Source: Saccoglossus kowalevskii | Taxonomy: Eukaryota; Hemichordata; Enteropneusta; Harrimaniidae | Reading direction: 5' to 3' | NCBI RefSeq assembly: GCF_000003605.2 | Contig: NW_003114462.1 | Span: 146,802-184,341 of the forward strand | Length of the DNA: 37,540 bases | Shown here: positions 2,661 to 35,377 of the stretch, one piece after another | How the letters are laid out: each line of letters starts with the position of its first letter | Numbering within the stretch: the stretch's first letter is position 1 | Made by a program: the position numbers and the translations under genes | The notes under the pieces: generated by a model | The model's database searches: none | What the model saw: only the letters and a program-made list of their open reading frames with translations | What the model was told of the DNA's origin: nothing

Positions 2661-3340
2661 GTGCGTATATAATCAATGTTGTGTTAATGAGACTCAAGTT
2701 AATTACTGTTATTCTATTCTCAAATATCGTTGAAGTCAGCCACACACAACAAAATATCTGGAATTTACCTTCAATTAATTTTTCTCACAGACAAGTCTTC
2801 AACATCAACTGTTCATTGCATTTGTTACACTCCTGTGGGTGAAAGTAATGCATACTGAATTTACTGCTTGTTTTCCCTTCAAACATCTCACATATCTTGA
2901 ACGAATTTTTTGCCAGACTAATTAGTTATTTAATTTTATCACACCACAAATAACTCGTTTGCAAATTAATAGTATATTTTCAACTGACTACGATATTTTA
3001 AACTACAGCAGTATTTTTGTGAATTGTAATACCAGTATTTTTGAGGCAACTTTACGAAATGCGATTATAATAATTGGAAAAGGCATAATTGTGAGTGATT
3101 GTAATTAGGTTATTATTATGACAACCTGACATCGTGAGTATAACAATTGATTTAATTTATTGATTTAAACACATGAAAACGGTACGTACAATATGTAAAT
3201 TATTCGTAATGACTTTAGTTTTGTTTGATGCCCACCTGCATTATGTCTTCACTATTTTATACTGCACTGTACTGAACTGTACTGTATTATTCACTCCACT
3301 CTTGTAAATGTTAAATCTTTTGTGATAGTCTGCCTTGATG
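2661..3340 (+). repeat. Segmental duplication block, upstream copy (A side)
   Basis: This non-coding block aligns in the same orientation with 22059-22739. Shared landmarks in the same order include ATCACACCACA, ATAATTGGA, GACTTTAG.TTTGTTTGATG, CCACCTGCA.TATGT and AAATCTTTTGTGATA. A weaker match may continue to about 3520 (CGGCATAC). It lies about 1.9 kb upstream of gene A exon 1 and marks the 5' side of the unit that was duplicated to give gene B. Confidence 0.8.
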
Positions 3341-3344
3341 TTGG

Positions 3345-5240
3345 AAGTTCAAGTTGCCTGCCTTGACAAATCATATTATCAGGATTATTGCACAGTGTGG
3401 GGTTATATAGATACTCGCCAATTAATTTTCGTTTAATAACGGGTATTATATAGAAGCATATTACTTGTTATGTACCTAGCAGGCTAGCTTGCCATGCTCG
3501 TGTATCGGCATACATTGGAAGAATTATCATGGCCACATTTGCTGCTTTTTGCGTGAAGATAAATTCGGTATTTCCATTGAAGATATAATGTATGTAGAGC
3601 CAAATACTGAAAATATAGTTGCAATAACACGTCTTAATACTACATTTACATCTGCATTTCTATGATAAAGTAACTCTGTAATTCGGTTATTAAATTCGAG
3701 CTGGCTATTTATCTTGGAATGAATAATAATGCTTTATAATAATAATTTATTTATGTAATTATTAAATGTGTGTGTATCACGTGTGTATATATATTACTGG
3801 ATTTGTTATGCACAATGTAAATGTAAGTGTTCCAAAATATGACAATTTTTGTACCCCACTTTAAAATCACTTGAAGTGTTTTATAATTAAACACATTATT
3901 TGTTTTTCTTAAAATAACAAATGAGTTATTTAACAAAAACAACACCACCAACCAACCAACACCAACACCACCACGACACGTAGAAAAGTGTCTCAACTGA
4001 GAACATGTTTTACTGAAGTGATTTCACGCAAAACACAATCTGATTATTGAAAATACATTGCTTATTGCTATTAAAAGTAATAATGTAATAAACGAAATGG
4101 TGTCACGGAATTATTTTGTTTTGTAGAAATGTGATATTATTTTGAAACATTTCATGTGTATCATAGGGTCCTCCTTACGGATTTGACAAAGTAGTGTTGT
4201 GTCAGTATTTTTGCTCTACTGAAATGTTTTTCGATTGTTGTGAGTCACTAGTTGTTTTGATTTTAGAAATTCCCTATACAACTTTGCAAGCTGTTCACAT
4301 GTTTCCATTTGAGTATCCTATTTCCACTTTACGCGTTACCGAATTAGAACATGAAACTCGAGATACTTAAAGATTGTATCAGCGACTACAATATTTTTAA
4401 ATGAACATCCTCTATTTTGGACCTATTGTAGACCTAATTGTAAATAACGACGATAATGAAGATATATTCCTATTATGACTAAATTTAAAAATGAATAATG
4501 CAATAATATTGCATCTTTCCGCCGATTGCAAATTTTACCACTCGCATGTCAACACAATATGATACATTTTTTATACAATTTTTGCCATATGTTATTTTTT
4601 CTTGAACACTATTCCAATGTTTTATAGCGACATACACCTTCCATCTATGTATATATTTCAAGTATTAAATTATTCTGGGTTTGAGGCTTATACTACTTGA
4701 ATTAACTTATTTAACTGAAGTGGCTTTTTTTAAATACAGATTGGGCAGTAAATGTGTGTCTGTGTATTTTTGAAACATCTAACTCTCATCACACAAAATA
4801 AAATGTCAAATAACACGTTTGAACCACGAATAGTGTTTTATTTCTGCAGTTACAATGGCACAACAGATTGAAGTATTCTATGTAACTGATATGTACAGGA
4901 TACGCCTTGTTCGAATATACGTAATTTGCATATTTGTTGTCAATTTAGCTCGAGCAATCTGTTCCCTTTATCTCACATTTGCGAATTCTTGTCAGTTAGC
5001 CCACGATTGTAGTAGGTAAGTGCTACGAGTACAACTGGTAAGGGTGTCGATTAATATTAGTGGTGGTTATAGCCACGATTATAATTAGCCAAGTTAGGTC
5101 CACGATTGTATCAGTATAATAATATTGAACAACTATGCCACGTTTCTGTTTTACCATATGCAGAACAGTAGTATGTACATTGCAAGTGAATGTACTCTCC
5201 GAACTCACTTGTATGATCTTCATAACTCAATATTTTCTAT
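3345..5240. other. Non-coding 5' flank of gene A
   Basis: AT-rich sequence with many stops in all frames. No domain, repeat family or RNA gene is recognisable. Regulatory sites for gene A could lie here, but none can be named from the sequence. Confidence 0.55.
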
Positions 5241-5242
5241 AT

Positions 5243-5250
5243 TATAAATA
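5243..5250 (+). promoter_or_regulatory. TATA box of gene A
   Basis: TATAAATA sits 41 bases upstream of the proposed start codon at 5284. This places transcription start near 5273-5280 and gives a very short 5' UTR. Support comes only from the motif and its spacing to a signal-peptide ATG with a matching splice phase. Confidence 0.5.
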
Positions 5251-5283
5251 GGGTGACGTATGAGTGTACAGACTGTGATAGTC

Positions 5284-5350
5284 ATGAAACTGTTTGCTGT
5301 GCTCACCTACTTGTTATTAATGACAATATCAGATGCCAATCCAATCACAG
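5284..5350 (+). CDS. Gene A exon 1: signal peptide
   Basis: The ATG opens M-K-L-F-A-V-L-T-Y-L-L-L-M-T-I-S-D-A, a typical secretory signal with likely cleavage after S-D-A. The exon ends ...ATCACAG before GTAGTT, leaving one base of a split codon. That phase matches exon 2, where G plus CC gives Ala. An in-frame ATG also occurs at 5260, but starting there would put a polar stretch ahead of the hydrophobic core. I chose 5284 for this reason. Confidence 0.62.
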
Positions 5351-8300
5351 GTAGTTTATTCAGCTCTTAAAAATCGTATCGTTTCATTGTCTGCACGTAC
5401 GGTTTATGCATCGACCTCCGATGTGCATCGGTACTGTCTTTGCGCATATTTTGCGATATCCTCATAATAATCGCATATTATTGTCAGTATTATTATATTC
5501 ATTAGCCAAGTCCACATTATTAAGTATTGTTCTACCATATTATCAGCATGGTTTCCATGACACAGTGACTCACATTCACATATTTCCGAGTCAATACATT
5601 CGCGATATTTATTTGGGTGTGGCCGCTGTGGACTACACGAGAATGCCATTTACAAACGGAAATAGTATTGAAATCGCATTTTTGCCTGTGTATTTTTGTG
5701 ATATATGGTTCTTCTCTGATTTTGTGATTAAAATAGAATTTGGTAGAGATGATGAATAATTAGCCTCGGAATATTTGTCGAAACATATGTAACGTAATAT
5801 TGTCACATCAACACTCATACGATGACAGCACAATTAATATTATTCATATTCAAAAAGGACCCTCCGATTCGCATACATGTGATCAATGTTTATCTACCAA
5901 ATCAAATCCGATTATTTTATATAAATATTTTCAACACGAGGCATATATAATTGTCGGTTGCATCACCCCATACATTTTATGGTAGAGATGCAGGACAATG
6001 GGCACCAAAGTATTTATTGTTTTGGTTAGTTCATATGTAGACAGTCGTGCCTTAACATTGGTAAAATGTTGGAGCCGTGAAAAACGGCATTTGATTATGT
6101 GTATTTGATCACGCCGTAACCAGAACCCACACAAGAGTGTAAAAGGGGCTCTTGACAAATGTATAATTTGGTTATGAAAGGTGATGCCGGCAATTTAATT
6201 ATAAGTTTGTTTATATGAGAGTTATAACCACTATATTAGTGTCACCATTTGCACTTGGTGAATGATTATGCAAATTAGCCACTCCCTCAACTTGAATTTC
6301 ATAGGTTAAGACCGAATTAACTTCCAAAATACTGCTTTGTTTCCGAAAAAGACTTTTACACTAGGTTAGGGAAGTTTTATTTATTTAACAAAGAATGTCT
6401 GGGACTTTTGATTATGTGATTTGTTTTGTTGTAACAATATCAATCGAGCTGTTAGCCATGTAATTGAACCGACTCAGTGATATAGCACTTATTGTATCAT
6501 TGTGCGGAATCAAAACACGATATTGCCTGGTGGTTCTTTGTTGAGAAACAATTTGTGTGATGATTGAAAATATAATGAACATAAATTCGGGATATATTTA
6601 AATGTAACCAACTGAATAAAGTAGAAATTCCATACCAAACCGTAGATCTTTATAAATAAGAAATATACATGTCCAGAAGCACAAAATAAAAGACATAGGA
6701 AAATGTCTGCTTACAACATTTAAAATGGGGATTTGGATTAAAACACGGTCTAAATCCTACTTTACGCCTATAAACGTTCCTTTGTGTGTTTTTTTCACTT
6801 TTCCTAGTTGTACAATAGTCTGGTAAACTAAATGTGTCTTTTCAGTTTATTCAAGCAACGCGTTTTAGAAAGTAGTTTGCTGAATTTTAATTTAAGTTTT
6901 AGTCGCATTGCCCCAACTGAAATCACAACACGTTGGTAAATAATTCATGTAATAGTTTGTCTGGACACATTCCAGTTCCTCTCATTGTCATCTTAAAGCT
7001 GTGAAAATTTGGTGTTAATCCGTCGACAATAAGTATACGTTATTTTTGTTAAAGACCTTGTATTTTGAAAAACATAAACTCCTAGAAAACGTCAATGAAG
7101 TCACAACAAAGATTTTCAAGCTTGTTTATCGGCACAAGCGATTTGTTTTCACATCAATTTCTGTCTTAACATGTGTAGGGGCATCCAAATGTATGAGGCT
7201 ATTGGGAACCAAAAATAAAGGAATTGGATAGCTATAATTCGATAAAAATCGGCAGATGAGAACACTAAAATCAATGATTTTTTTAGTTGCTGTGTGATCT
7301 TGTGTCTGACATATTCATATTCAAATGAACTAATCTGTCAACAAACAGGGCGGAGACCAACCACTATAGCTACTGATAACACATCCTGACTTTATGGATT
7401 ACATGAGATAGCGAAAGAGGGCAAGATCCTCAAATGCAGTTAATTTAGTTAAGGTCACAAAACAATCAAGCAGTCGTAAACGTAAACCCAAGGCTCGAGC
7501 AGTCACAGCGCAATCAGGTGTACAATAGACGCTCCCAGAACTTCGATTATTTTTGAAAAATTGCATCGATTGTTCGTACTAACACGTCCATGACTATAGA
7601 TAGTAGTATGATTTCAGAGTGAGAACAATAACATTGATACATTGAGACTTTGCAATACTTACTGCCGGGTGTGTGTGTGTGTGTTTATAACTTCTAGTAT
7701 GTCGGACCTATCATGGCGTAGTAGGTTTATAGTGTATTTCATCAATTAATAAATAAATGTGAAAATCTCGCTACCTAAAGTAAAACAAAAAACGATTGAG
7801 CAATTCTCTGCCAATACTGTGTTCTACTCCCTGTTAATTTTGGTCCTGTAGACAAGAGTTTTACTGAGGTGTTACGTGTAAAGGACTGTAAGAGAGTTAT
7901 GGTGAACACTGGAAAACCTTCAATCATTTTTTATACACCACTTAATAAGATGTTTCGGCCACAGTGAGATTTTTTCTATACAGATCATTGAACGCCGGGA
8001 TCAAACACATACAATTTACTATTGTGCCGGGAGATGGTAGGATGGAGAGTTTGTCTCAGTTACGTTGGGGGATCGTTTAAAAGGTATAAAATGATACAAA
8101 TTTTTCTAAAATAAATTAATATAAAATCGGTACAAATCTAACAACAATTTCAAATTACTCTTTATAATTTACTTATTTTATATACTCATGGTGAAGTTTA
8201 CTAATTCGCTCCGACGACTGAAATATGAATGGCAGATGTCCATTTAATATATATTTTGGAAATAATACCGAATTAGATAAAAATATGAATAAACTAAATT

Positions 8301-11300
8301 GTGTAAAAGCACAAGTGAGCTCCACAGCGGCTTTAATATAACAATCAGTGATTCACACCTTCTCCTACAGAGAGTGTCAACACCTAACGCCGCTCTCCCG
8401 TCTTGAGATCTATCTTGAAAAGCTATATGATAATGGTAGACTAGGGATGACTTGAAACCAAATAAAAATTATTCTAAAATAACGTACTAATACCCAATTG
8501 ATTATGGATTCATTGACCCGAGAGAAGAAAAAAACATCTTCGCGATAATTATGCAATAATCGTCGAGCAGTTCCAGATTGTAACGTTCTGTTGACGAAAT
8601 GAATACTAACGAATTTCAAATAACCAATTGTTTTTTTTTTAGCTTTTTCAATATTTAGCATATTTTAAATATGTTGTACATAATCTTCGGTGATAACTAC
8701 GAAAGCGAGGTCCCACACCTTCAACAATATCAAATTTATTGTTCTACATTCACCCAACCTTCCGCTCGCTGTCACTTTTCGATCGTTTTTTTTTCTTCGC
8801 TCGCTTTTGCAACCGCTTGCTGAATTCGACCGGATAATTACTGCTTTGTTTTCGACCGCGTAAACCCGGAAATATTGCCCGTTTTTAATTATCTATAATC
8901 TGATCTTTGACTGGGATGGAATATATCATTTTAAACAATATTCTGACGCGACATACTGCCACAAAATGTATTACAACACAAGTACGGTATGATTGTCTAA
9001 TTTGCAAAATACATCGGTATAATTTCGGGATTTCCTTAACGATTTACATAATTACTGTTATTTTCCCCAAGGAGAAAACATGGACCACATAACTAAATAA
9101 AGAGTTCCGTGCCCATGCACGTAAAAATAAAATAATGCCTAACATTCCATATATTTGTTATTTTTGCGTATGTCTGATATGACAGTATGTTTGTAAATAT
9201 ATAGAAAAAAAATCTCGATTATAATTTCGATTGTTTGAAAGGTCTATAGACCCTGCGTGTCTCGGTAATTATTTGTTTGTAATGTCGATCGCGTCTTAGT
9301 TCAGGACGGCATCGGTATTGCAGTCTGTCTTTCAACTCAATTCATGGGGACAATGTTCTGTATTTTGAGGGCTGAAAACTCAGATAATTAAGCAAGTACT
9401 ATTTATTATATATATTGTTTGATGATTTTTTTTATCGCGACACTATAAAAGAACTAAAGTTGTCCCGTTGAAACAGTCACATTGGTCAATTTCAACTATC
9501 CATTTCTTAACTTGAAATGAAAAAAAAAACCGAAGAGCATCAGGAATATATTAATGACCATACTTACCAATCGACAGCATTATTTTAATCTAGCCAGTCT
9601 TCCGACATTTGTTGGCAACTTTAGTGCTAAACTTGTTGAATATGTGTGTGTTGTTCTCTCGAAAATTCATGTAGATAACACGGACAAGTACGGTTCTGTG
9701 ACCCAGGACTTGCTCCGATCAAGTGACATTCAGGTAGTCAATGATGTTGTAACTACGCGCATCTAATAACCGGTGTCAATTCACGTAGGTTTGTGGTGTG
9801 ACAGGCTTCAAAATTATTCGCTCCATAGTCATTGCTATATTTTGACAAATGGTTCAAAAAGAAAAAAATCTGCTGCGATACCTTAGAGAACACGTCAAAT
9901 CAGTTTTCTTTGCAAATTGAGAAAATTATGTAAACCAGACTATGGTGTATAATTTCAAGTACAGAATTGTCAAACTGTTCATCGACCGGCCACCAAATAT
10001 TTACGGCTACAACAAATGTAACACTTTGTTAAATTTCTGAACCCCAAAAACTGTTTATACATGTCAAACTCTGTTCGATTTTTTAAGGGCATGTCGCATG
10101 TTTTTGCTCAAAAATATTTGTTTGTGATAATACTTTTATTGAAAACCTGATCGTGACTTAATTTTGATGTCAAAACTTACTAGACCGACGTGTCATTTTT
10201 GGGAAAAACGCAGCAATATTTTCCTCGTTGCTCTGCTCTCTGTCCAAAGAAGTTAGCATTGCTTTTTGTCATGTAACTGTCACGATAATCGTTGTTAGAA
10301 GAGGCGAGCAGCCCTGATTCAAACGGAACAGAGTGCCGCTCCAGCATGTTGTGTAACACGGTCTATTCACGTAACAAGAGGTCACAGTTCAATTCGTTGG
10401 ATACCGATACAAAGGATTGATGTGTCATTCAGAATTTAATAATAGATAATACTCGTTGTTTTCCTCAAACTTTACTATTAAACCACCATTTCGACTACTC
10501 ATGTACCAGTGATCAGTGTTTGGGTGAGCAGTCGGTGTTTTCATTTAGCGAGCGAGAAAGCGAAAAAATGTACCGTTTTCCGGTAGGAAAAGACCGTGCG
10601 GTCCGACCGTGCGACGATAACCAGTCGATTAAAACGCGATAAAAGCGGTGGATTGGGCAAGCGTCGTCAAGTGAGGACATGATCGAAAGAGTTGATAGTA
10701 CACGCGGGGAGTGAGTCCAGACTGGGAACTTTGTCAACAGCCCTATAGGAGGAAAACGTGAAATCTCGAAGGATATTGCACGTTCATACGTTCTTCTTGC
10801 GTTTTGAGGGCTGCAAAGTCCGAAAAAGTACACTAAATGAAACAAAAATCATGCGCTAGTGATGTGGCAATGAAGAATTTGGTTTTCCAGTACTTAATCG
10901 ATTTGTAACGCCTTGGCTACTTTATTTACATTAGCTTTTTATCCAATTGATTAAGAATTTGAGCTGACTAATAGGCCGTGTCGAAAACGTTCACGACAAA
11001 AGTCAGTTGTAAGCAGAATTATTCTTATTAAAACAATCCACAAGAACAGAACTAAGACAACTACTCTACACTACACTATATAGTGAAATATGTGGACTCA
11101 ATGGTTGACATGAAGTGATGCACATGTGTCACCCAACATCTTTTTGAGTCATAATCAAAAGGTTACTGTTTTAGACCCAAGGTCTACATTAGGAAGTGAA
11201 AATTTACTACACGCTCTAAATGAATATGAAAATATATATGTATATCTATATATCTCTCCATATATCTGAAAATCTCACCCTTAGAATGAAATTATTGGGA

Positions 11301-14300
11301 CAAATCCATGTATGAAGCAGAAGATTATGTTGTCTCCTTGTCTCAACATATTTCATTTTAGAATTAATGATGGAAAGTATATCATCCATATATATCTGAA
11401 TGTTAAATTAAACGATTTATCACTTCTGTGCGGTTTATTTCAACTAACTTCTGTGGAAGAATTAATGAAATCTGCCAGTATGGAAGTACAATGTGTTCCA
11501 ATTGGAAAGCGGAAACTTTGTTGAAAGATACATCCTACAAACTCGACAAATTCTAGCATACTGATAATGTCATCCTAATTGTAGGGAAGTTTCGCGCCAG
11601 TATTGTTCTTAACAAAGTAAGAATAATGGTATCCAAACAATAAGTATTTATAGCGACTAGAATCATCTTTATTGATTAATGCTTGATGTCTAATTTTTCT
11701 AGTGCGTAATTTTACGTAATCGTGTGGTATAGTACTATAAATGATAAAAAAATAAAAGTGCAAATAACAGTTATATTTGAAAGTGACCTTGATTTCAATT
11801 TATTCAAAAGCTCTTTCGATTTTTTTTTTAAATTGACATATGATTTATACTACTTCTAGAAAAGATGGCATCACAGTATTGCTGTGAAACTCTTCGAAGG
11901 ACTTAATAAAAAATAATTCCTAGCTAAAAACGTTGGTGCATTTCAATCGAGTCATATTATGAGTTGTTTACAACATACCCCGCTTCCTCTTATTCAATTT
12001 CGAAATTCTAAAATACATATACATTGAAAATAACTTTGAGTTTACTGACTATGCTAAATATGAAAAGAAGGGTGAAAGTGACGAGCATTGGAATACTGAA
12101 TACTGGCTTCATTGAGTAAATGATTGCAACTTGGATTGTATATGCCTGAACTATAATGAGAGATAGGTGATTGTGTAACCATAATTTGTTTAGTTTCTTG
12201 GATAATCCTTTCTTAATGTAGGTAAACTATATCGCCTACTTCAAAATTACTTACTTTTGCCTTTTGGTCGTAATTATGCTTCATTTTTTTATGACCTTTA
12301 TTATTATGTTTTGTCCGGCAATTTCGTTTATGACTTTTAATCTATCTTTCAATTGTTCATTGCATTCTGGGGCTGTTTGATTTTCCACTGGTTCCTCTTC
12401 TAATAATATTGTGTCTATTAGTAATACTACCTCTCTCCCAATCATCATAGCGAAAGGTGTTTCTTTTTGTAGTCTCGTGTTTTGATATTCTGTAAGCCAT
12501 TAATATTGCTGGGATGAATTAGTCCCAGTCGGTCTGATGGGTATTACAAAACATCGATACTCCTTGTATTAAAGTCCCATTATTCTTCTCTACAACACCT
12601 TGAGACATCGGATGAAACGAGGAAGATGCTATCTTATCAATGTTTTATAATTAACATTTATCTTTAACGACTTTTGAAAGAAAAGTTTGACCTCTGTCAG
12701 AAGGTATTTATCTTGGAGCCCTATACCAGCAAATAATTCCATCGAATACGCGCAGTTGTCTTTGCAGTTTGATCTGGTGTTGCAAAGGCCTCAGGATATG
12801 TTTGGAAATTGTCTACGGTTAACAATATATCTTTGTTTCCTTGGGAGCTTTTGTAAATCGGACGTCCCTACTCATAAAATCGTTCACGTATCGCTGTGTA
12901 TGTTTTTTGCGAAACCAAAGTGTTCCCCCAAACATAATCGTGCATTTGATTCAATACGAATTGTCTTAAAAAGTAATAAAACTGTTTTATACACTGTTGT
13001 TTGATATTTGTTTCCTTTATAAACCAACAAGCAATTTATTTCTATCCATAATATATTCATCATGTGTGTGTAAGATTACTCTAGTATTACGAGGATTAAT
13101 TGATTAATTAGTTCCTGCGTTTATATTACTATCTCTTTTAATTGCTGAACTTGCCTTTGTAAGGTTGGCAAGTTCTCTAATAATGTTTTATCTCTATTCT
13201 CTATATCAGGTGTTTTTTATTAACCGCATTAACCGTCGTTGTCTAGGTCTAGGTTTTCTTAGTTAGTCACTAAGCCTGCCAAACCGATACAATCGTTCTG
13301 TTTTAGTTGTCTCTTTTATTCTGTGTTAGAAGTCGTGCATTGTGATCCGTAGTTATCTCGAATTTAGCGTGCCTAAGGTAAACGTCGAAATACTTTACAC
13401 CTAAAATCACTGTTAAGGCTTCTAGTTGTGTTATTCCGTATTTAGTTTCCGCTGGGGTCAAACCTCGTCCCCTGTGTGTTACGTTCATGTTCGTCTTGTG
13501 CTTGTGATAATATGTATCCCAGGCCTGTTGAAAGGCTTTTCGATATCTGAATAACATAATATGGATGGCTTTACTTATGCATTATTTAATGTTTGGAACG
13601 CCTTATCACACTCTGTGAACCATACAAACTTTACTTCCTTTTTTGTTAAGTTGTATAATGGCCTAGCAATTAACCTAGCGAGAAACGTTCTATGCTACTG
13701 GAAATTCCCTATTTTTGTTGTTGGTTCAGGATTTGATTCAATGCCATCCTTAGATATTATGTGTCCTAAGAATTGTATTTCATTGCATCCAAATCTGCAC
13801 TTGCTTAATTTCAATTTCAAATGTGAAACCTCGTAGAACTGTGATCATCATATTTTAGAAACTACTTGCGGCCCCTTTCACCCCCATTGAACATCGTTTA
13901 AACATGTATGTACCATCATAAGTCGTAAATGTTGCCAATTCCCGAGAATCTGGGTGTAGGTCTAATTGGAAGTAGCCGCTTTTTAAGTCCAGTGTAGAAA
14001 AATATTTCGGTTGAGCTAAACCCAATGAATCTAGACAATCAGTTATTAGTGGTAATGGATAGACGTTTTCTTTAGTAACAGCATTTAATTTACGGTAATC
14101 AACGCAGAAACTATAAGTGTGATCCGGGTTTTTGATCAAAATTACCGGGCTGGACCACCCACAATGGGGCGCTGGTTTGATGATATCCTGTCTCAACATT
14201 TCATGTCGTGTTATTTCTTTGCATTTATGTGGCGTTACTCTATATGGTCGACTGCTAATCGGTTTCTGTCTGCTAAATTTGAGCTCGATTTTATAGTTCG

Positions 14301-17300
14301 TAATATTACAATGTCCCATTTCTCCTGTTGTTTCTGCAAATATGTCACTATTATCATTCAACAATTGACTCAACTCTAATTTTTGTCTATTTAAATCTGT
14401 GTCGAGTTTCTATGTCGGCTTCCCCGCCACGTGCTATGAACAGGGCGTCGAAGAAGGAGGGGGCTCCGGTGAACTGCGGATGACACTTACACGTGGAGGT
14501 GCCCGTTTCGTTCCCAAGGAATACACATTTTCGTTCTGTACAGATAGTCCAGATTTATTCACACAAGCAGTCAGCCGAGGTAACCCTCGCTGCACCGTTC
14601 TCTGGTTCTCTCCCTTACAAAGGAACCAAACTCTCTTTAATAAATAGAGTAAAGTATATATAATATAACATGCTGTAGTCTGTAGTCTGCATTAATCAAG
14701 AAAAACCATGAATCTAAACACTTGATATTTCCACTCTCATACAGCCATGACCGATGATATACTGAGGCCTGTAGTTCACAGCCAGTATCGAAATAGACTA
14801 CGACGCCAAACAGAGAGTCGGTTTTTTATTGTGACTAACAATCACGATTTGGCAATACTTGACTCAAACACTGGAACTACGTCAGAATCAATACCTGGTA
14901 CAGCTCTTACAATTGATGTAGCTTTGCACATTGGTGGAGCATTACTCGGAATTACAGAATCTGGCGATCTTCAATATAAATCAACAAAGGACACACCCTG
15001 GTCAACTATTTCACCAAGTCGATTCAGTATTGTATCAGTGATGTTTAGTGATCAGAATATCATATGGGCTGTTGAAGCAGACACACATCAACTGATTTAC
15101 AGGGAATCACTCAATCAAGACTGGCTTGATATTGTTCCAAATAGTGGTCCAATCCTCGGAATTGAAGATTATGGTGGAGGAGTAATTCTTGGTATTGCTT
15201 GGCCTGATGGTGATGAATTGTTGTATGGTCCTATAGGGGATACATTCTGGGAACCCACAGATGTTGATCTTCAGGGTCAAAGTTTATTTGATATTGTATT
15301 AGTAAATGGACGATTTTTCCTTCTTGCAAATCCTAATGATTTCATGGCAATTAAAAGTTGCCCCATGAACTCAGGTGAGTTATTTTAACATAATCAAATG
15401 ACTGGAAATGTTAAAAAATAATTAAAATTATAATTAATCAAACTCTCACTTTGCCTTTTGAGTTGTAACCGAATCAGAAGCTTAAGCAGGTATTAACAGG
15501 TATACATATTTGTCATGTCTGTTTTCTGGATTGATGTCATGTAATACCAACGGAATTTAGTACTTGGCATCTGGAGTTGATAGAAAGGATATACAATATC
15601 CTGACAAATGCTTATTTATCATTGAACTTTGTCCGCAAAGTAAGTAATTCGTACATCACTATACTGTCTGAATTTCAAATAGTGTTGTTATGTCATTCAC
15701 ACAATACATACTTTCAGTAATACGTCAGAAAATATAACTTGGCATATAAGGTTCATGAAAAAAGTGAAAGTTTGTGAAATTGCCATGGAACAGATTAGCA
15801 TACCTCTTCACAGAAAATGTTTAGCTACATTGATATGAAGCTCACTGTGTCTGTTAAACTTAATCTATTAAACAGTAATAATGGCTGTAATATATTCAAA
15901 CCCTTTACAAATAAAAGTTTGTCTTGGTAAACTGACAATCTTCGTGAGTTTCAAGAGAATTAATTCATATGTTTCATAGTTCTAAATGTAACAATCATTC
16001 ACAAAATTAGTTTTAACATGGCAATCCGATTCCACATTTCTTCCAAGTCATGAGGGAAAAAGTTACATATGCTGAAAATTGGTGATTCATGTAAAATATT
16101 CCAATTCATGATATAAGTTTATGTTATTAAACATATTCATATAGTCGTATACTGATTAAAACACATTAACTACCAATGGAAATGGTTAGACCGAATTATG
16201 TAAAATAGGATTTGATATGACGTTGGTATAAGTATGTTATTTGTGTTTTAAATATCCGATACAAAAATTGAAGAAGAAAATTGATAATTGCACACCATAG
16301 ACGTAATATAACACTTCATCAGTAGTATATGTCAATGTACACTATTAGCTGGTATAATTGGCAATACAGGTTACACAACACATTTGTTCACGCGTTTCAA
16401 CTAAAAAAACAAATCATTTACTCTTGATATTTCATCCTGGTTTTATGGAGTCATAAATAGATTGTTTCTTGAATAATCATTGTATGTTAGGTTACACTGG
16501 TGGTCCAACGACGGATGGCTTGCAATTATTGGTGATAAAAGATGACAATCAATTGTATCAAACAGATTTTCAATTTCAATCAATGGTTGGTCCATTAACC
16601 CCTGATGTACCCTTGATAGATGTTGATATGTCCCGGAATGAGTGGCTAATTGGTGTAACAGATACATATGAATTGGTACATATGGAATCGTTAGCAAGTG
16701 GAGTATGGTCAAGCCCTGTTTCAGGAAGTGCTAGTGTTATCAGTGTATGTGTAGGTTCACCGAGTGGCGAAATATTTGGAATAACTGCAAATAACGAATT
16801 GAAAGTGAGAGAAGATATCCAATCATCATGGACAATCGTGGTAGATGGGTATCAGGAACAGGTTAGAAAAATAGCATATAGTGCTATTGTGATGGGACTT
16901 ACACCAAGCACTCTCTTCCTACTTGACAACTCACTGGTATGGATTGAAGCTAATATTGAGATTGGTGACGATGAAGTTGAAGACATAACTGTCATTGACA
17001 ATAATGGTATCTTTCCATTGCAAGCGAATAGTGGTTTTATAGCCATTTGTTATACTGGACTACAAGAATCACAAGGTACGGGAGGAAATACTGAAGAAGG
17101 GGGATATATCGTCGGAAGCGAAGGTATAGTATTATTATTGCATTGTTGTGTTTCATTGAAGCAACGTGATATTTGACCGCTGCAATTTTGTTTGTTTTAT
17201 TATGTGTTGATGAACATAAATATTGAGTGCATGTTGAATACATCTGAGTAAACAGTAGGACGATATGATACCGAATTCACTATAGACAGGAAAAGAGGTC

Positions 17301-20249
17301 CAACTAGGTGGGGGATATTTTGCAATAGCTTAATTTTGCTGAATATTTGTAGATTTATATGTATTTGAGAAAATCAATAAAATGTCTGACACAAATTTGG
17401 CATCGCAGATTTTATAGCTTTTAGCTTTTAAAGCATATACTACTAAAATACAATACTACATTCACACATTACGGTCTAAATATCACATGCACACAGCATT
17501 ATTAACATTGTCGTCATAGGATTACACAAACAAAGACTATATTGAGATGTATTCCCTAACATACGAGTCGGAATGTAGTAAGGCTAAAGTGCTCAGATAT
17601 TTGTATTTGGTAAATATGTTAAATTGCCGTTATATATCATCCTATTCCTATTAATGAAAGTTCCAGAATTGTTTTTCTATCATTGTTATTTAAAAAAGGT
17701 GTAAACAAAGAAAAAATAATGCTAAACCAACCGGTAAGAAAACCCTGGACAATGATGCTCTATTTTCATATTTCTGCAATACCTTTATTCATTCATGCCT
17801 GTGTATGTGACATCTTATTCTCCAAACAAACAAATATTACAACATGACACATTCTGATACAATTATCTTCTGGGTTTAAAAGGTATTCAGTTGTTGGTTA
17901 TAACTATTTACGCATATATTCTGCATACTTTTCTACAGCAGACGAAGTACATGTGTTTAAAATAAACTTTAATTGTTTTATGATTATTGTTCAGAAATAA
18001 ATGTATTAACCGATTGTGAATGAAGATTCAAGATATGATTTTTTTTATCAGAGATCTGAATACTAAAGAGTATGCAACTATTTAGCTTTTATTGACTGCA
18101 TTGTGATCTTTCTCCATTTTATTTGTCTAGGTTCAAATACACTTCTCGTTGGAATTGACAACAATTTGTACATACGTGACAAAAATCACAATATAAGCCC
18201 TGTCCCAACTTTCAGTGGGATTATCGATATTGCGGTGATGACAGATGGTTCTTTGCTTGCAATAGATACAAACAACGAAATGGTGTGGAAGCACTCAATT
18301 GACACTCGGGGATGGCCAGAAAAAATACGAAACTCTTGCTGTGTGATTAGTATTGATTGCTTGGAACAGTACATCATTGGTGTTGGAGTTAATAACCAGT
18401 TGTATATAAAAGAAATTTTATATAATGAATGGAGTGGCCCAGTTCCAGACAGTGGTTTTGTGACAAAGGTGATTGCACATACTGATGGACAAACTATACT
18501 CGGAATAGATACAAATGGTGCAATAGTGGTAGCTACTGATAAAGTGCCTATTTGGCAAGCTGCAGGAATAGATGTCATTGCAAAAGATCTTACTGTAATG
18601 CTTGATGGTGCTTTTGATGTTCTCATGGAAGATGACACTACATTTCAAGCAATATGTCGAGTTGAACTACCGAGTGATTCTGGTGAAAGCTCAGTTGGAT
18701 CTGGATCATTAGGTGCAGCTGGTCACTATACAGGTAAATGCGTTTTTGATTCAATTTAGGTGAAACACAATTCTAAATTACAGGGTGACCGAAAAGTGAA
18801 TGACAACTGAATAACTACCTGAATTTGATTAATATCACTTATTTTTTATCGCTTTTTCTTGTTTTATCAATTTATAGAAGTCCCCCACACTATTGTTGAT
18901 ATGCCTGGAGCAACATATTCAGCAAGTCACTATATGACAGGAGAAATAGATCAGCGCAGTGTTATTGCTGTGGGGGCTGATGGCTATCTTTATACGGGAA
19001 TCCCAATAGGTGATCATGTATATCAATATGGTAAACCAATAGAGGGATCATGTTGTGTAAAAGATGTGGCTAACCTGCATGATACCACACTTGTTGGTGT
19101 TCAAGAGGACGGTAGTTTGTATGTAAAACCAAGTTTAGCGGACGACGACTGGATTAAAAGCAATACCGATAGTTGTTGTATTGTCAGTGTGGATATAATG
19201 CCAGGTGGTGAAATAGTAGGAGTCGGAGTTGAAGAGGTGTTGCTCATGAGATCAAGTATAAATGCTGAATGGGATTACACAATTCCTACTGGCATGCGCC
19301 TTGCAAAACTCACAATATTACCCAACAACCGTGGTATAATTGGGATTGGTGAAAATAGTGCACTCACTATTCTTACACTTAATGAGATGTGGAAGGCTCT
19401 CAACAACGATATATCGGATTTACCTATCACTGACCTGGCTGTTGATAAGGATGGGAACTATGGCATCTTGAATCCGGGAATGTCAGAAGGACCAGACGGG
19501 AATCAGATTCACATAATTAGTATGACTTTTGTAGATCTTCCTCAACAAGGTATGATATTGTCATTGAGATCACTCTTCTGTATATTGCCATAGAGTTTAT
19601 CAATATCAAGTAACTGATTGGATTTATATTGGAAGTGTTATATTGATCAACTAACACTTGGAATTATAGTATGCAGAAGTACCTGTGACTGTGTTACTGT
19701 GTATATTTAGTAATATTTTTACTTCATTATTTTTTCTGATGAATTCTACAGTGATGACCAGATATGTGAGATTTTAACGCAATATGGAAAGTTTGAATTG
19801 TTCTTTACGTTGTGCTTTTGATTATAGAGTCTACTTCAATAGTCACGAGTCGATTACAGTCTACTCAGATGGTTGCCACAGGTAAATTGCCTTTCCAATA
19901 ATATATCTCCTGAAAACACATTCAAGTAAATTCGATATATTATACATTTTGTTGCTTTTTGTTTTCTTCGCAGATTACAGTGGAATGACAACTAGTGACA
20001 ATATCATTGGCGAAAATGATTCAGTTATTGACAGAAGCAGTGGTTCAGGTAATCAAATCTTTAAAAAAATTGGTTAATTGTGTTTTTTTAATTGATAATT
20101 GATTTTCTTTTTTTAACTTTACACAAGGTATGGCGACACAGATTATTATACCGCTGATTATAGCTGCTATTCTGATTGGAGGCTATATTGGTGTTAGACA
20201 TCACAGGGAAAAGCAAAATCTGCTCAAGGAAGTCGAGCCAGACCAATGA
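5284..20249 (+). CDS. Gene A: type I membrane protein with four beta-propeller-like domains
   Basis: Eight exons join as 5284-5350, 14745-15374, 16491-17123, 18131-18733, 18878-19549, 19828-19881, 19974-20048 and 20128-20249. They total 2856 bases, or 951 residues plus stop. All introns are GT-AG and all are phase 1. Layout: signal peptide (about 1-18); basic stretch ending R-L-R-R (40-43), a furin-like site; four propeller-like domains, one per large exon (about 45-232, 234-443, 445-644, 646-868); Ser/Thr-rich stalk (870-911); transmembrane helix (917-934); short basic tail. The domains are built of roughly 40-residue units with an I-x-G-I/V strand, N/G-x-L-Y, then Trp and a small-residue turn, like tectonin/tachylectin-2 repeats. 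Inference: a surface or shed lectin-like/adhesion receptor. No enzyme motif is seen. Exon 1 is the least certain part because of the 9.4 kb intron. The alternative start is Met at 14747, without a signal peptide. Confidence 0.78.
5351..12129 (+). other. Gene A intron 1, 5' part: no gene seen
   Basis: This is most of the proposed 9.4 kb first intron. Open frames are short and unrecognised. CpG-richer patches lie near 8700-8880 and 10530-10800, a short TG run near 7671-7683, and an AT-rich dinucleotide patch near 11230-11275. No phase-1 exon resembling the gene A modules is visible. Confidence 0.55.
11977..11994 (-). other. Possible polypurine tract of the antisense gypsy element
   Basis: On the - strand this reads as a purine-rich run (AATAAGAGGAAGCGGGG) followed by TA and then TGTTGTAAAC. 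That is what a polypurine tract followed by a 3' LTR start could look like, just beyond the end of the pol remnant. The candidate LTR does not obviously match the LTR-like block at 14413-14670, so the call is weak. Confidence 0.25.
13303..13557 (-). pseudogene. RNase H segment of the gypsy remnant
   Basis: The open segment of 84 residues carries a typical retroelement RNase H core: L-T-P-A-E-T-K-Y-G-I-T-Q-L-E-A-L, then V-K-Y-F-D-V-Y-L, then the T-T-D-H-N-A box near the end. It sits just after the RT in element order. It is a piece of the pol listed above, not an independent gene. Confidence 0.8.
13855..14373 (-). pseudogene. Reverse transcriptase segment of the gypsy remnant
   Basis: This is the longest open segment of the element, 172 residues. 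It covers the RT fingers and the first part of the palm: P-x-C-G-W-S-S-P-V near residue 90, V-D-Y-R-K-L-N, L-D-L-K-S-G-Y-F-Q with the first catalytic Asp, and C-S-M-G-V-K-G-A-A-S-S-F at the end. The frame breaks before the Y-x-D-D catalytic box, which I cannot find in the decayed sequence downstream. Confidence 0.85.
14413..14670 (-). repeat. LTR-like block next to gene A exon 2
   Basis: On the - strand this starts TGTTATATTATATATAC and ends ...GCCGACA (TG...CA ends). It holds TATA-like AT stretches and an AATAAA near 14560, and is GC-richer toward its 3' end. It directly precedes the antisense pol remnant, which suits a 5' LTR with gag deleted. No second matching LTR was found and no clear primer-binding site follows, so the boundaries are approximate. 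It ends only 74 bases before the exon 2 acceptor. Confidence 0.4.
14745..15374 (+). CDS. Gene A exon 2: propeller-like domain 1
   Basis: The acceptor is ...CCACTCTCATACAG and the donor GTGAGT; phase 1 on both sides. The N-terminal part holds R-N-R-L-R-R-Q, a furin-type site. Five repeat units then follow: R-F-F-I-V, L-L-G-I-T, I-I-W-A-V, I-L-G-I-A and F-F-L-L-A. Trp closes units 2-4 (P-W-S, D-W-L, F-W-E). The domain ends F-M-A-I-K-S-C, a signature also seen at the end of exons 3 and 4 (F-x-A-I). A fragment of this exon survives in gene B. Confidence 0.85.
15375..16490 (+). other. Gene A intron 2
   Basis: This 1116-bp GT-AG intron is AT-rich with no gene or recognisable repeat. An alternative acceptor TAG at 16460 would keep the same phase and add ten residues to exon 3. 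I prefer 16490 because the added residues do not fit the module pattern. Confidence 0.7.
16491..17123 (+). CDS. Gene A exon 3: propeller-like domain 2
   Basis: Phase 1-1 exon. Units begin L-Q-L-L-V, L-I-G-V-T, I-F-G-I-T, L-T-P-S-T and F-P-L-Q-A, with Trp after the first complete units (V-W-S-S, S-W-T-I). The domain ends F-I-A-I-C-Y. A Gly/Glu-rich linker (Q-G-T-G-G-N-T-E-E-G-G) precedes the donor GTATAG. Repeat 4 is the most divergent. No counterpart exists in gene B, where this exon is deleted. Confidence 0.85.
17124..18130 (+). other. Gene A intron 3
   Basis: This 1007-bp GT-AG intron ends in a good pyrimidine tract (TTTTATTTGTCTAG). It is AT-rich and I see no gene, RNA or known repeat in it. 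Confidence 0.75.
18131..18733 (+). CDS. Gene A exon 4: propeller-like domain 3
   Basis: Phase 1-1 exon with the clearest repeats: L-L-V-G-I-D-N-N-L-Y, L-L-A-I-D-T-N-N, I-I-G-V-G-V-N-N-Q-L-Y and I-L-G-I-D-T-N-G, closing with F-Q-A-I-C-R. It has a vicinal Cys pair in N-S-C-C (residues 513-514) and an N-glycosylation sequon N-I-S (N464). It ends with a short Ser/Gly linker (S-G-E-S-S-V-G-S-G-S). The gene B copy carries a much longer Ser/Gly stretch at this point. The open frame on the opposite strand here is a shadow. Confidence 0.88.
18878..19549 (+). CDS. Gene A exon 5: propeller-like domain 4
   Basis: Phase 1-1 exon, the largest module (672 bp). Units begin S-V-I-A-V-G-A-D-G-Y-L-Y, L-V-G-V-Q-E-D-G-S-L-Y, I-V-G-V-G and I-I-G-I-G. 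S-C-C pairs occur at residues 703-704 and 744-745. The end (D-L-P-Q-Q) differs from the F-x-A-I ending of the other three modules. It is the exon best conserved in gene B. Confidence 0.88.
19828..19881 (+). CDS. Gene A exon 6: Ser/Thr-rich stalk, part 1
   Basis: A 54-bp phase 1-1 exon between ...TTTTGATTATAG and GTAAAT. It encodes S-T-S-I-V-T-S-R-L-Q-S-T-Q-M-V-A-T. It is too short for an ORF scan, but it is supported by phase, splice signals and an intact 54-bp counterpart in gene B (36270-36323). Likely an O-glycosylated membrane-proximal stalk (inference). Confidence 0.75.
19974..20048 (+). CDS. Gene A exon 7: Ser/Thr-rich stalk, part 2
   Basis: A 75-bp phase 1-1 exon with acceptor TTTTCTTCGCAG and donor GTAATC. 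It encodes an acidic, Ser/Thr/Gly-rich peptide (Y-S-G-M-T-T-S-D ... I-D-R-S-S-G-S). The 75-bp gene B copy (36359-36433) keeps its length and frame, which supports a real coding exon. Confidence 0.75.
20128..20249 (+). CDS. Gene A exon 8: transmembrane helix and cytoplasmic tail
   Basis: The acceptor follows a T-rich tract (TTTTTTTAACTTTACACAAG). The exon encodes Q-I-I-I-P-L-I-I-A-A-I-L-I-G-G-Y-I-G-V, one membrane helix, then R-H-H-R-E-K-Q, a basic stop-transfer segment, and a tail ending E-P-D-Q before TGA. The tail is only 17 residues and shows no ITAM, ITIM or kinase motif. Signalling, if any, would need a partner. The matching exon in gene B confirms the boundaries. Confidence 0.82.
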
Positions 20250-22058: not shown

Positions 22059-22739
22059 GCATAAATATACAATCAATGCTGTTTTAATGAGACTAAAACC
22101 AAATAATTTATACTAATTTAAGTTTCTCACACGTAACAGAATATCTGGATATATTTACTTCAAAAGTCGTTTGGAATTCATCATCTACTGTTCATCGTAT
22201 TTGTTATACTACTGTTGGTGAATATTATGGATGCTGAATGTATCGCTTATTTTCTTTTGAAACATCGTACAGACTAATCAGATATTCAAATGTATCACAC
22301 CACACATCCCTCGTTTAAAAAATAATAGTGTATTTTCTACTGACTGCAATGTTTTAAAATACATGAATGTGTCTGTTCGTGACATTTCATATTTTAGAGG
22401 CCAACTTTTACAAAGTGTCAACCCATAAAACTGTAATGTAATAATTGGACAAACACGATTGTGAGTGAGTGTAATTATTATTTTGGTTTTTCACTGATTT
22501 AACAACAGGAACAACCTAACATTGTGAATATATGACTATTAGTCGCTTTGACATTCAATTCAAAACTGGTCATTACATTTGTAAATAACTTAATGACTTT
22601 AGCTTTGTTTGATGTCCACCTGCAATATGTATTCACTATTTTACACTGCACTGTACTGTACTGTACTGTAATTAACTGTATTATATTGTTTTCTCAAATC
22701 GTGTAAATGTGAAATCTTTTGTGATAATCAGCCATGATG
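22059..22739 (+). repeat. Segmental duplication block, downstream copy (B side)
   Basis: Direct-orientation match to 2661-3340, with the same order of landmarks, small indels and many substitutions. A weaker continuation to about 22843 matches 3480-3520 (GT.TGTA.CGGCATAC). It is the left flank of the decayed gene B unit. It also holds a short (ACTGT)n run near 22650-22668. Confidence 0.8.
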
Positions 22740-22843
22740 GTGTTTATTTCTTAACTGAAAGTCGATCACACTTTCACACCTAGCCATTGTTATGTTATCT
22801 CGTTGGCCGCGTACTCGCGGTGTGTACCGGCATACCTTTGAAA

Positions 22844-24929: not shown

Positions 24930-26230
24930 ACAGGTAGATGGTTCTTGTATCTGAGATTGATATATATAACGTTTTCCAATAATCGGCAAGTGGTTTAATA
25001 TTTGAGAAAAATCTGGTAAGTCTAAAATCTCACGTTGAATAGTTGGAAAGTTAGGCAATTCTACCACACCTACAAAAGAATGTTTGAAATAATTGACAAT
25101 GGAACAAAAAAGGTCATCAACCTTAAATGATTTCATCATATATAATTATTCATTGGTATATAGAATATAGTGCAATAATTTAAATTGAAATACCCTATAT
25201 GCGATATCAAAATTACAGTTGAACAACAAATTTTCACCCATCCTTTGCAACCCAAGCAATCAAAGAAATTGTGAAAACGCTCTTTCCAGGGGTGCTTAAA
25301 TGCTGTTTCCAGATTTCTTTAAATCCAGGAGATGCGCAGTATAATGTTATAATATCAGATGTTTTAAGACCACTATATTGAATATCAGACTTCAATACTT
25401 TGTCGGCAATTTTATCTATACCATTCCCGATAAAAGGAAAAATTGAACTTGTCATTCTCATCAGTTTTTTTTTCCACTTACCAAGCCAAATTGCCTCTTG
25501 TTTGTTTCTCTATTATTTTGTAGTCCTGAATCATAATGGAATTGTTGCAAAAGATTGAATAAAAAAGATCACCGACTTCACAACAGCAAGTTGGCAGGTC
25601 GTTAGCGGAAGCAATATTCTTAACATGTTCCCCGCCTACCTGAAATCCATGTATATTTAGATTACAACGCATGGCAACTAAAAGAGGTTTCAGTGGTAAT
25701 ACAAAAGAGGCTGCCTGAGAGGGAACTCGGTGAGCATTTTCAATAGTTACATCCGCCATCTTGGATCCGAATGCCTTTACTATCGCCACACAGTTTCCAC
25801 CTGTTGATTCTTAAATCCAACAATCTCTTAGAGTAAATATCTTTGCATGTTGAGGAAATTATGCATCAGGATTTCCCTTTGAGACTGTAGTTGCTTGTTA
25901 GAAGCTTGCAAGAACGACAAGCCACTGAAAAATTCATTACACTCGTTACACGAGTATCTCAAATCAGTTTCCAAATCGCCGATTTTTTTTCATCCCGACT
26001 TTTCGAGCGAGCATTTGTTTTTGGTCCGCTGAGGCCCTGTCCAACTTCACTTTCAACTTGACCATTCTTTCCTTCAACTACGAATCTAAGCCACTGATAC
26101 ATTGTCTAATAAATTCTTCCAAGCCAGGTTCACTATACCAACTCATTTCTGTAACACCTTTATTGACGTTATGAATATTGAATGAATTAGTAAATTTTCT
26201 GTGACTGGGATTCTGCCGTAATTGACTCAT
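24930..26230 (-). mobile_element. LINE copy 1 (L1/Tx1-like), internally deleted remnant
   Basis: Read on the - strand, an ORF1-like start lies at 26230 (M-S-Q-L-R-Q-N-P-S-H), followed by a charged, coiled-coil-like stretch with a G-L-D-S stop. At 25789-25478, M-A-D-V-T-I-E-N-A-H-R-V (ORF1-like) runs straight into RT-like sequence: F-V-L-P-L-K-P-L-L-V, then N-I-H-G-F-Q-V-G-G, then a degraded A-D-D box (S-A-N-D-L). Downstream, S-G-L-K-T-S-D-I (25461-25234) and P-D-F-S-Q-I-L (25139-24924) resemble the ORF2 C-terminal region. Endonuclease and most of RT are missing. The copy aligns with 31665-32812 on the other strand. Confidence 0.65.
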
Positions 26231-31664: not shown

Positions 31665-32812
31665 TCAACAGATTATTGTTCTTCAACCTGCCAAGTTTTA
31701 TTGATATCTGCTGCAGAATTTATGAGAAAATGTTGGAGAATCGGGACGAGCGGAAAACACAAATTTAGACAACTTACCAGTGGATTAGATTCTAAGTTGA
31801 AGGAAGGGATGGTGAAGTTGAACAGGGCCTTAGCATATCCAAAACAAATGCTCGCTCGAAAAGTCAAGATGAATAGAAATTGGCGAGTTTGAAATCGATT
31901 TTAAGAACTCGTGTAGCAAGGTCAATGAACTTTCTAGTGGCATGTTGTTCTTGCAAGCCTCTAGCAAGGAAATAATGGGTAATGTTCCCAACCCGCAAAG
32001 ATATTTAGAGAAATTTAATCTAAGATTTTGTTGGATTTCAAAATCAGCAGGTGAAGACTGTGTGGCTATCGTAAAGGCATTCAAATTTAAGATGGCGGAT
32101 GTAACCATTGAAAAGGCGGTGAACATGTTAAGAATATATATTGCTTTTGCTGACGACGTGTCCACTTGCTGACGTGAACTCGGTGATCTTTTTATTCAAT
32201 CTTTTGGGAAAATGTCATAATGCTTCAGGACTACAAAATAATATAGAAACAACAAGAGGCAATTTGGCTTGGTAAGTAGACAAAAGTCTAGCTGTTTCTA
32301 AGTTTGTTTTATTGACAAGTGTCAAGTGTTTCAAGATGAATTTTTCATTTTATCTGGAATGATAAAGATAAAATTATAGTGGTTCTAAAGCATTTGATTA
32401 TATAATTTTATACTGCGTATCTCCTGGATTTAAAGCATTTAAGCATCCTTGGAAAGAGCGTTTCCATGAAAGGTTGCAGATGATGGGTGGCAATTTGTTA
32501 ACACCAGGTATATGTTATTTCAATTTAAACTATTGCACCATATTATATATACCAATGACGAATTGTATATAATGAAATCATTTATGGTTGATGACCTCTT
32601 ATGTTTTCTTTGTCTGGTAGAAGCAGAAACTAAAAATCGCGTATTTTCTGTTTCTATTCACTCAGAGGCATTTTACAATTCTTTCAAACAGTCCTTGGCA
32701 GGTCTGGCAGAATTGACTAACTTTCCAATTCTTCAACATGAGATTTTAGGCTCACCAGACTTTCCTCAAATATTAATCACTTGCTGATTATTGGAAAACG
32801 CTATCTATATTT
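31665..32812 (+). mobile_element. LINE copy 2 (L1/Tx1-like), internally deleted remnant
   Basis: It aligns with LINE copy 1 in inverted orientation. Shared pieces in order are a charged ORF1-like part (G-L-D-S-K-L-K-E, M-L-A-R-K-V-K-M), V-A-I-V-K-A-F and M-A-D-V-T-I-E-K-A, then an RT-like A-F-A-D-D-V box (about 32138-32155), T-R-G-N-L-A-W, M-K-S-F-M-V-D-D-L-L and P-D-F-P-Q-I-L. It keeps the A-D-D catalytic pair that copy 1 has lost. It also keeps about 55 bases (E-A-E-T-K-N-R-V) that copy 1 lacks, but carries an extra deletion between ORF1-like and RT-like parts. Many stops; not functional. Confidence 0.65.
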
Positions 32813-33599
32813 ATGTCCGCCTTCCGGGAAGCTGGGAAAACTTCACAAACTCTTCCATTTCCTAGCATATGATCTTCATGTCCACATTAGACAATAATGT
32901 TGGATCAAAACACAGAGGAATACAGAAACCACGCTCACGTGAGTAGGCGAGCATTTGTTCATGTATTAGATTAAATTAATCGTGGTTTGAAAAGTTTGAT
33001 GACCAGGATTCTATGGAGTTCTAGCTGTGGCTATGATTCATTAACTTATGATGAATTATGGATTGTCGTTTGAATTGGCAATGATATCAAGTACCTCCCT
33101 ATTCAATAGAGATCGCATGCACTAGATTCCGAGATGGCAAATGGGTTGCCATACATTGTCAACTATGGCACAAAATCCACCTGGCAGACTTGGGTTGTAT
33201 TTCCTCCAGTCACTGAGAGCTTTGTCCTCTTGTCATCACCATCTCTACCTGTCCTTTGATTCAAAACTGGATACAAACTCAATGTTCTTTTCATTAAATA
33301 GGCAGTAATTTGAAAATGATGAAAAACATATGTAACTAGGTAACCTCTCTGTTGATTTTGCATTGGTTTTTAATATGTTTTTTCTATCTATGTAAATAAG
33401 TGTGGTGATGTAATATTTGTCAATTAACCTGATGTCTATTATCGTTACAAATTCTAAATAAATTAACAGTGTTCGTATTTTTACATTATCTTACACGTTG
33501 GTTTGAGTTTTTTCTATCTTCAATACTCAGATTGTGTTATATTACTGAAAGGTAAATCGTTGGTAGCCATCTTGAAATTCAGTGTGGCCGCCATCCAAC
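32813..33599. other. Spacer between LINE copy 2 and the Gmr1-like fragment
   Basis: No gene or known repeat recognised. The open frame at 33163-33363 (-) has no domain I can name. Confidence 0.5.
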
Positions 33600-34575: not shown

Positions 34576-34705
34576 TCACCAAGCCGTTTCAGTATTGTAT
34601 CAGTGATGTTTAGTGATCAGAATATCATAAGAGCCTTTGAAGCAGAAACACGTCAACTAATTTACAGGAGAATACTCAATGAAGACTGGCTTGATATTCT
34701 ATTCT

Positions 34706-35234
34706 ATGGCATGACAGAATACCAAATTCTTGCTGTATGATTAGTATTGATTGCATTGAAAATTCCATTATTGGGGATGGAACTGATAACCAGTTGTATA
34801 TAAAAGAAACGTGAATGTTGCATGGAATGGCCCAATTCCAGGGAGTGTTTTTTTCAATAAGTTGATTGCGTATACTGATGGACAAACTATATTCGGAATA
34901 GATACAAATGGTGCAATAGTGGTAGCTACTGGTAAAGTGCCTTTTTGGAAAGCTGTAGGAGTAGATGTCATTGTAAAAGAACTCACTGTAATGTCAGATG
35001 GTACTTTTGAATACCTCCTGAATGACAACCCTGCATTTAAATCAATATGTCGAGGTGAATTACCGAGTGGTTCTGGTGAAAGCTCAGTTGGATCTGGATC
35101 GTCTAGTACCTCAGGTTCATCTGGAAGCGCGGGAGGATCAGTTGACTCTGGTGAAACTGCTGACTACTCTAGTGTTTCCGATGACTCAAGCACATTAAAC
35201 TCCGTCAGATTGAGTGCAGCTGGTCAATATACAG
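34706..35234 (+). pseudogene. Gene B exon 4 piece with long Ser/Gly linker
   Basis: From the Trp-containing unit onward it follows gene A exon 4 (N-S-C-C-M-I-S-I-D, D-N-Q-L-Y-I-K, then after a one-base shift N-G-P-I-P and I-F-G-I-D-T-N-G). The linker is much longer than in gene A: about 35 extra residues rich in Ser, Gly, Thr and Asp (35095-35210), with several S-G dipeptides. The donor GTAAAT at 35235 matches gene A. Confidence 0.8.
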
Positions 35235-35377
35235 GTAAATACGTTTTGGATTCAATCTTAGTGAAATGGAATATAAAATTACAACCGCACTAAAAAGTTG
35301 ATAACAGCTGAATTACCACCTGTGTGTGAATAATATCTTAAATTTTAAAAGAAACATATTTTTTTATAAATTCATAG

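Follow-up and report, generated by a model that had tools for sequence, protein, structure and literature searches.

A predicted hemichordate membrane receptor with four tandem propellers related to tectonin-type lectins

Beta-propellers of the tectonin type are known mainly as soluble lectins that consist of a single propeller. Their sequence units, as in Tectonin 2 of Laccaria bicolor (5fsb), the carp fish-egg lectin (4ruq/4rus) and the Pfam family PF19193, are about 40 residues long and follow the pattern strand, G-V-n, L-y-x-[RK], W...P. The same pattern and unit length recur in four consecutive exons of a gene described here, which lies at positions 5284-20249 of a window (the whole stretch of DNA analyzed, 37,540 nucleotides, C805:146802-184341) from the hemichordate Saccoglossus kowalevskii. 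The product is best explained, with a probability of about 0.6, as a type I membrane receptor that carries four tandem five-bladed propellers of the tectonin/tachylectin type and has a putative role in glycan recognition. It differs from the tectonin-type lectins, whose blade numbers are not those of the receptor, in that its propellers are strung in tandem, are anchored in the membrane and have an apparently shortened fifth blade.

Tachylectin-2 of the horseshoe crab, with homologues in Nematostella and coral, is the second system for comparison; it resembles a receptor module, if the blade number suggested below is right, in having five blades of similar size, and it differs in being a soluble, single-domain protein with blades of 47 residues. 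It is described as a ring closed by strand exchange between its ends (‘Velcro’), with repeated sugar sites on a rigid ring and dependence on multivalency (PMC4735018). For the coral homologue, positive selection and a putative recognition role are reported (PMC2880987), and Tectonin 2 and PLL5 have, by the titles of their records, structures solved with sugar derivatives.

Gene model and membrane anchor

Joining eight exons on the forward strand gives a single open frame of 951 amino acids whose only stop is at its end. Each of the seven introns has GT-AG borders and lies in phase 1, and the internal exons have lengths that are multiples of three. The original prediction, which placed four phase 1-1 exons between a signal-peptide exon and exons for the stalk, transmembrane (TM) segment and tail, is confirmed by this frame, and its outer coordinates are correct. 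Exon 1 (5284-5350) encodes the signal peptide MKLFAVLTYLLLMTISDANPIT and ends in a phase-1 donor. Exons 2-5 each encode one module of about 200 amino acids: M1, preceded by a short propeptide with a furin-like RLRR site (14745-15374), M2, a type tandemly duplicated elsewhere in the genome (16491-17123), M3 (18131-18733) and the membrane-proximal M4 (18878-19549). These are followed by two stalk exons (19828-19881 and 19974-20048), both with counterparts in a second copy described below, and by exon 8 (20128-20249), which encodes the TM helix, a cytoplasmic tail of 17 residues and the stop codon. No cysteine occurs past residue 745, hence none in the stalk.

Exon 1 is the only candidate in 3000-14745 that passes a simple rule for a signal exon (a start codon and a hydrophobic core, followed by a good phase-1 donor). 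Its ATG is preceded, 41 bases 5' on the same strand, by a TATAAAT box (5243-5249), and translation might instead begin at a second ATG, in frame at 5260. The surrounding DNA is found at four more loci of the genome (L040-L043) at identities of 81, 80, 80 and 74%, where the 74% match spans 265 bases of a query of 500; exon 1 proper is 92-93% identical at three of these loci and 78% at the fourth. In the alignment, which displays three of the four loci (L041 is absent), the box is identical and the signal frame and donor are preserved in L040 and L042, and the box and the second ATG are changed in L043.

The first intron is 9.4 kb long, a length that may partly be due to a reverse-transcriptase fragment inside it, which lies on the opposite strand (13855-14409; Pfam RVT_1, 30.9 bits against a cut-off of 29.6), is no part of the gene and is presumably of the Ty3 type. 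This long intron, together with a gene model derived from sequence alone, is what can be said for a chance collection of exons picked by eye rather than one gene. That alternative is very nearly excluded: the order M1-M2-M3-M4 recurs with a TM exon on another contig, C1914, exon 1 recurs at the four loci just listed, and the modules are mutually homologous. The eight exons are therefore taken as one predicted gene.

A single segment, at about residues 917-935, exceeds the Kyte-Doolittle threshold for a TM helix. By hydropathy and conservation, the product has the layout of a type I membrane receptor, with a signal peptide leading into an ectodomain and a single TM helix ahead of the cytoplasmic tail. 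TM exons that resemble exon 8 are present in two of the three C1914 genes examined (GTATKIVLPLIIIALLIAGCIGVYYYRTK in L010 and a near-identical one in L011). The furin-like motif R-x-[KR]-R stands before the first blade in 8 of 59 module frames, namely in all four labelled M1 and in the first module of four other loci, and this recurrence speaks independently for routing of the product through the secretory pathway. Signal peptide, furin-like site and TM exon together support the predicted extracellular, single-pass receptor. Inspection of the tail by eye revealed no recognizable signalling motif.

Propeller modules and their relatives

The four modules are homologous to one another: all six pairwise local scores lie 6.4-18.8 standard deviations above those of shuffled sequences, with 0 of 300 shuffles per pair reaching the real score. 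As read from the alignments and from a structure model of M4, each module comprises four near-complete units of about 40 amino acids, the first without one strand, and a shortened fifth, in agreement with the predicted count of about five units. The M4 model is a predicted five-bladed propeller of moderate confidence (pLDDT 67.5), in which the strand order fits five blades closed by the C-terminal strand in blade 1. The modules are placed in the beta-propeller superfamily, which is defined by a circular array of four-stranded blades, and the top Foldseek rows for the M4 model point to tectonin-type lectins, with hits to PLL5 and Tectonin 2. The propeller fold foreseen in the original prediction is thereby supported by the model, by Foldseek and by the profile search described next.

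Searches of M1-M4 against Pfam, NCBIfam and PDB sequences return no credible match. Against the named Pfam propeller families, none of the four window modules scores above the cut-off, and 0 of 25 receptor modules match at E <= 0.1; below the cut-off are a KIB1-4 propeller (E 0.041, well short of it, with a longer M1 translation) and DUF7304 (0.0095) for M1, and B_lectin (0.21) for M3. Since the family escapes the profile libraries searched, its members are probably annotated elsewhere just as uncharacterized proteins.

The connection to known propellers runs through apparently single-propeller relatives in the same genome (L015, L018, L023 and L024), which have a clearer unit pattern and an apparent closing strand at their end. 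One such relative matches Pfam Tectonin with 33.3 bits (cut-off 30), four of five match at E <= 1, and their profile finds Tectonin 2 in the PDB with E 1.7e-04. The receptor profile aligns with these relatives at 99.8% hhalign probability (E 2.2e-30). Searched directly against the PDB, it returns WD40, designed and Tectonin 2 propellers, the last with E 0.0015; this search (26 sequences) also includes matches that are plainly due to chance, such as ribosomal proteins at E 0.6. No receptor module scanned reaches the curated cut-off of PF19193, and homology to its accepted members appears at the profile level. The receptor modules are thus, on profile evidence, diverged propellers whose nearest recognized relatives are tectonins. 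The family was called unrecognized in the original prediction, which is right for curated profiles and wrong at the superfamily level, where the profile chain leads to tectonin-type lectin propellers. Tectonin, one of the candidate lectin families it had named, is reached through the single-propeller relatives; of the propeller types it had proposed for comparison, tectonin (as Tectonin 2) and WD40 are found at the profile level, the Pfam cut-off is not reached, and Tachylectin-2 is not among the matches listed in any of the six PDB sequence searches.

Two further matches were set aside. A unit-profile match to designed ‘Bagel’ propellers (9e-06) is inflated by eight identical copies and is not relied on, and the PDB matches to complement receptor 2 obtained with one single-propeller relative add up chance fragments. 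When the whole genome is searched with the Tectonin model, the only entries listed are C1938, twice, and C2388, the latter being a single-propeller relative. The C1938 region (73905-77309), with Tectonin matches of 62.1 and 38.8 bits, is unlisted by any module search and is a separate canonical tectonin gene.

An alternative that comes out as unlikely is a cell-cell adhesion or allorecognition protein, whose propellers would bind protein partners, including their own kind, in the manner of the YWTD propellers of LRP6, LDLR and ROS1/Sevenless. In those receptors, YWTD repeats form six-bladed propellers that stand next to EGF or FNIII domains, and EGF-like domains are the usual neighbours of YWTD propellers. 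For the M4 model, the leading VIA rows are a microtubule-associated chain of Toxoplasma and receptors of the YWTD type, not lectins, which speaks against the lectin assignment. Sequence profiles and the top Foldseek rows favour tectonin-type lectins over YWTD proteins. Neither YWTD/LDLR class B nor EGF-like domains gave a Pfam match in M1-M4, in a search whose filters drop most matches above 0.1, the stalk is free of cysteine, and no YWTD-propeller protein is matched by sequence in the receptor-profile PDB search.

Within M2, sequence variability is highest in the a-b loops (mean entropy 1.82 bits), compared with 0.86 in strands and 1.06-1.24 in other loops, in an analysis of 12 rows only that leaves two strand segments unplaced. 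Segments of blades 4-5 are mostly more variable than those of blades 1-3. A reading of the variable loops as a binding face was not adopted; it would rest on these 12 rows, with no coordinates.

Family expansion and selection

The family was searched in the species' own 572-Mb genome. Searches with M4, M2, M1 and M3 give 39, 25, 12 and 55 matches, respectively, which condense to 60 or more module places, spread over 20 contigs; the figures are lower bounds as close exons were merged. A profile applied to the fetched loci finds 73 domain matches in 59 open frames. Among the 48 modules in frames with at least 130 amino acids of domain, 42 have a phase-1 site as their best acceptor and 38 as their best donor, where one third would be expected naively.

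A tree of 48 modules (28 labelled and 20 unlabelled rows) groups M1, M2, M3 and M4 each as a single clade relative to the other labelled rows, across paralogues. The clades are partly expected because the labels were chosen from search similarity and position. Independently of the tree, the modules follow the order M1, M2, M3, M4 along C1914.

Multiplication within a gene is seen for M2 only. On C1914, the interval from M1 (184150) to M3 (193375) contains three M2 exons, on C4561 two M2 exons adjoin one M1, and the 11.9-kb contig C2808 carries five, of which the last is truncated, as a tandem repeat of 2.5 kb whose units are 96-97% identical; this array is recent enough for studying the process of exon multiplication. 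Contig C126 ends within an M2 exon of the C2808 type (90-92% identity to the C2808 exons over up to 488 bases), so that arrays of this kind may be points where the assembly breaks, and there may be more M2 exons than counted. Family searches, M2 arrays and module clades together support the predicted expansion by exon and gene duplication. Three loci, L012 and L013 (C2951) and L014 (C2532), have two modules each, and in two of these loci a furin-like motif precedes the first module; the three possibly represent an older, shorter form of the receptor. Beyond this genome, a phage collection gave 0 records, 0 of 6 pattern matches in viral contigs were confirmed, and 1 of 160 in GTDB contigs was confirmed as a short stretch in an alphaproteobacterial metagenome-assembled genome. 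No horizontal origin is inferred.

Among the three C1914 genes, the ratio of nonsynonymous to synonymous substitution rates (dN/dS) is 0.19, 0.28 and 0.31 for M4, 0.46-0.71 for M2 and 0.60-1.04 for M3, and the distal modules M2 and M3 thus seem to evolve faster than the membrane-proximal M4. The highest value among the pairs printed is 1.18, for two M2 exons.

The window contains a second, broken copy of the gene (34576-36677, forward strand), in which an M1-type remnant is fused to an M3-type exon and followed by counterparts of exons 5-8. Deletions of one base affect its M3-like and M4-like exons, and it contains stop codons. Open frames at 33890-34570, just 5' of this copy, have no Pfam match, and one of them continues in frame into its first piece.

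This copy is relevant to the alternative of a decaying lineage-specific family, in which one or a few genes work and most copies, including the second one in the window and the fast divergence of M2 and M3, reflect relaxed constraint. The second copy is broken and diverges without exon constraint, matches on C4132, C1389 and C4561 contain in-frame stops, and recent M2/M3 pairs have dN/dS of 0.46-1.18. Opposed to these observations are the dN/dS values (0.24-0.57) of older comparisons (dS > 0.4) in all four module types, splice phases preserved in most of the 48 modules, the M4 ratios between the C1914 genes and a window gene that is open across 951 amino acids. On balance, general decay is judged improbable, somewhat more so than the adhesion alternative.

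Other features of the window and the genome are as follows. Inverted repeat pieces of 43-163 nt at 24953-26050 and 31812-32817 are 80-88% complementary and about 6-8 kb apart; open frames in their arms have no Pfam match, and the pieces may stem from a single mobile element that is present twice, in opposite orientations. A dispersed direct repeat (3207-3343 and 22591-22742, 78-93% identity) has a CTGTA-rich stretch. The window gave no match to Rfam and no tRNA. Around position 7681 of L010, an open frame contains GDIETNPGP, which is taken to resemble the 2A-like peptide of non-LTR retrotransposons. On contig C4830 (L036), a mitochondrial segment has COX1 (Pfam) on the strand opposite to genes taken to be ND1 and COX2, with tRNA-Gln and tRNA-Ala between COX1 and COX2; such an arrangement is uncommon. 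An echinoderm-type mitochondrial code was rejected, with AAA at expected lysine positions in ND1, COX1 and COX2; AGA occurs twice in these genes and AGG was not seen.

Receptor model and comparison with known systems

Several results weigh against the receptor proposed here. The M4 model was built from 4 sequences and its confidence is moderate, and the Foldseek TM-scores for PLL5 and Tectonin 2 are only 0.46-0.55, so that the blade number of five depends on strand order and alignment. No glycan-binding residues can be assigned in the modules, and the 951 amino acids contain one N-glycosylation sequon, few for a large ectodomain. The C1914 gene L009 shows no TM exon in the stretch scanned, and no furin-like motif precedes the first module of L012. 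The tree tool warned of long branches. When M4 is contrasted with M2 plus M3, Fisher tests reach significance for two of the three gene pairs, which are not independent of one another (p 0.039, 0.0047 and 0.185), and as the highest dN/dS is 1.18, relaxed constraint is as possible as positive selection. Between the window gene and its broken copy, M4 has a dN/dS of 0.71, and exons (83-91% identical) are hardly better preserved than introns (79-91%), as is expected if one copy is dead.

The type I receptor with four propellers would work as follows. The signal peptide would be removed and the short propeptide probably cut at RLRR, leaving an ectodomain of four propellers, each encoded by a phase 1-1 exon of its own, which a short stalk connects to the single TM helix. 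The distal propellers may bind repeated ligands multivalently, most likely glycans on microbes or other cells, with M4 and the stalk keeping them away from the membrane. By analogy with known lectins, glycan recognition might serve in innate immunity or in the recognition of cells. With so short a tail, any signal would presumably pass through a partner or through clustering. Copies would come to differ in the number and sequence of distal propellers through gene duplication and through tandem copying of the M2 exon, an addition that leaves the frame intact. Tentatively, and with the odds against it, this might amount to a new animal innate recognition system, in which the fast-changing M2 exon is multiplied, genes, haplotypes or splice forms vary the distal propellers, and the membrane-proximal one stays constant.

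In the literature covered, which mostly leaves out subscription papers and is weak evidence on this point, no account was found of a tectonin family with several propellers on a membrane anchor. Among animal recognition genes, Dscam, the FREPs and allorecognition genes diversify through the duplication of exons or genes, and they use Ig or other domains. The receptor resembles Dscam in its tandem phase-symmetric exons, which can be added without breaking the frame. Propellers strung along a membrane protein, one per phase-symmetric exon and with one type multiplied, would be a new animal route to diversity in receptors of lectin fold.
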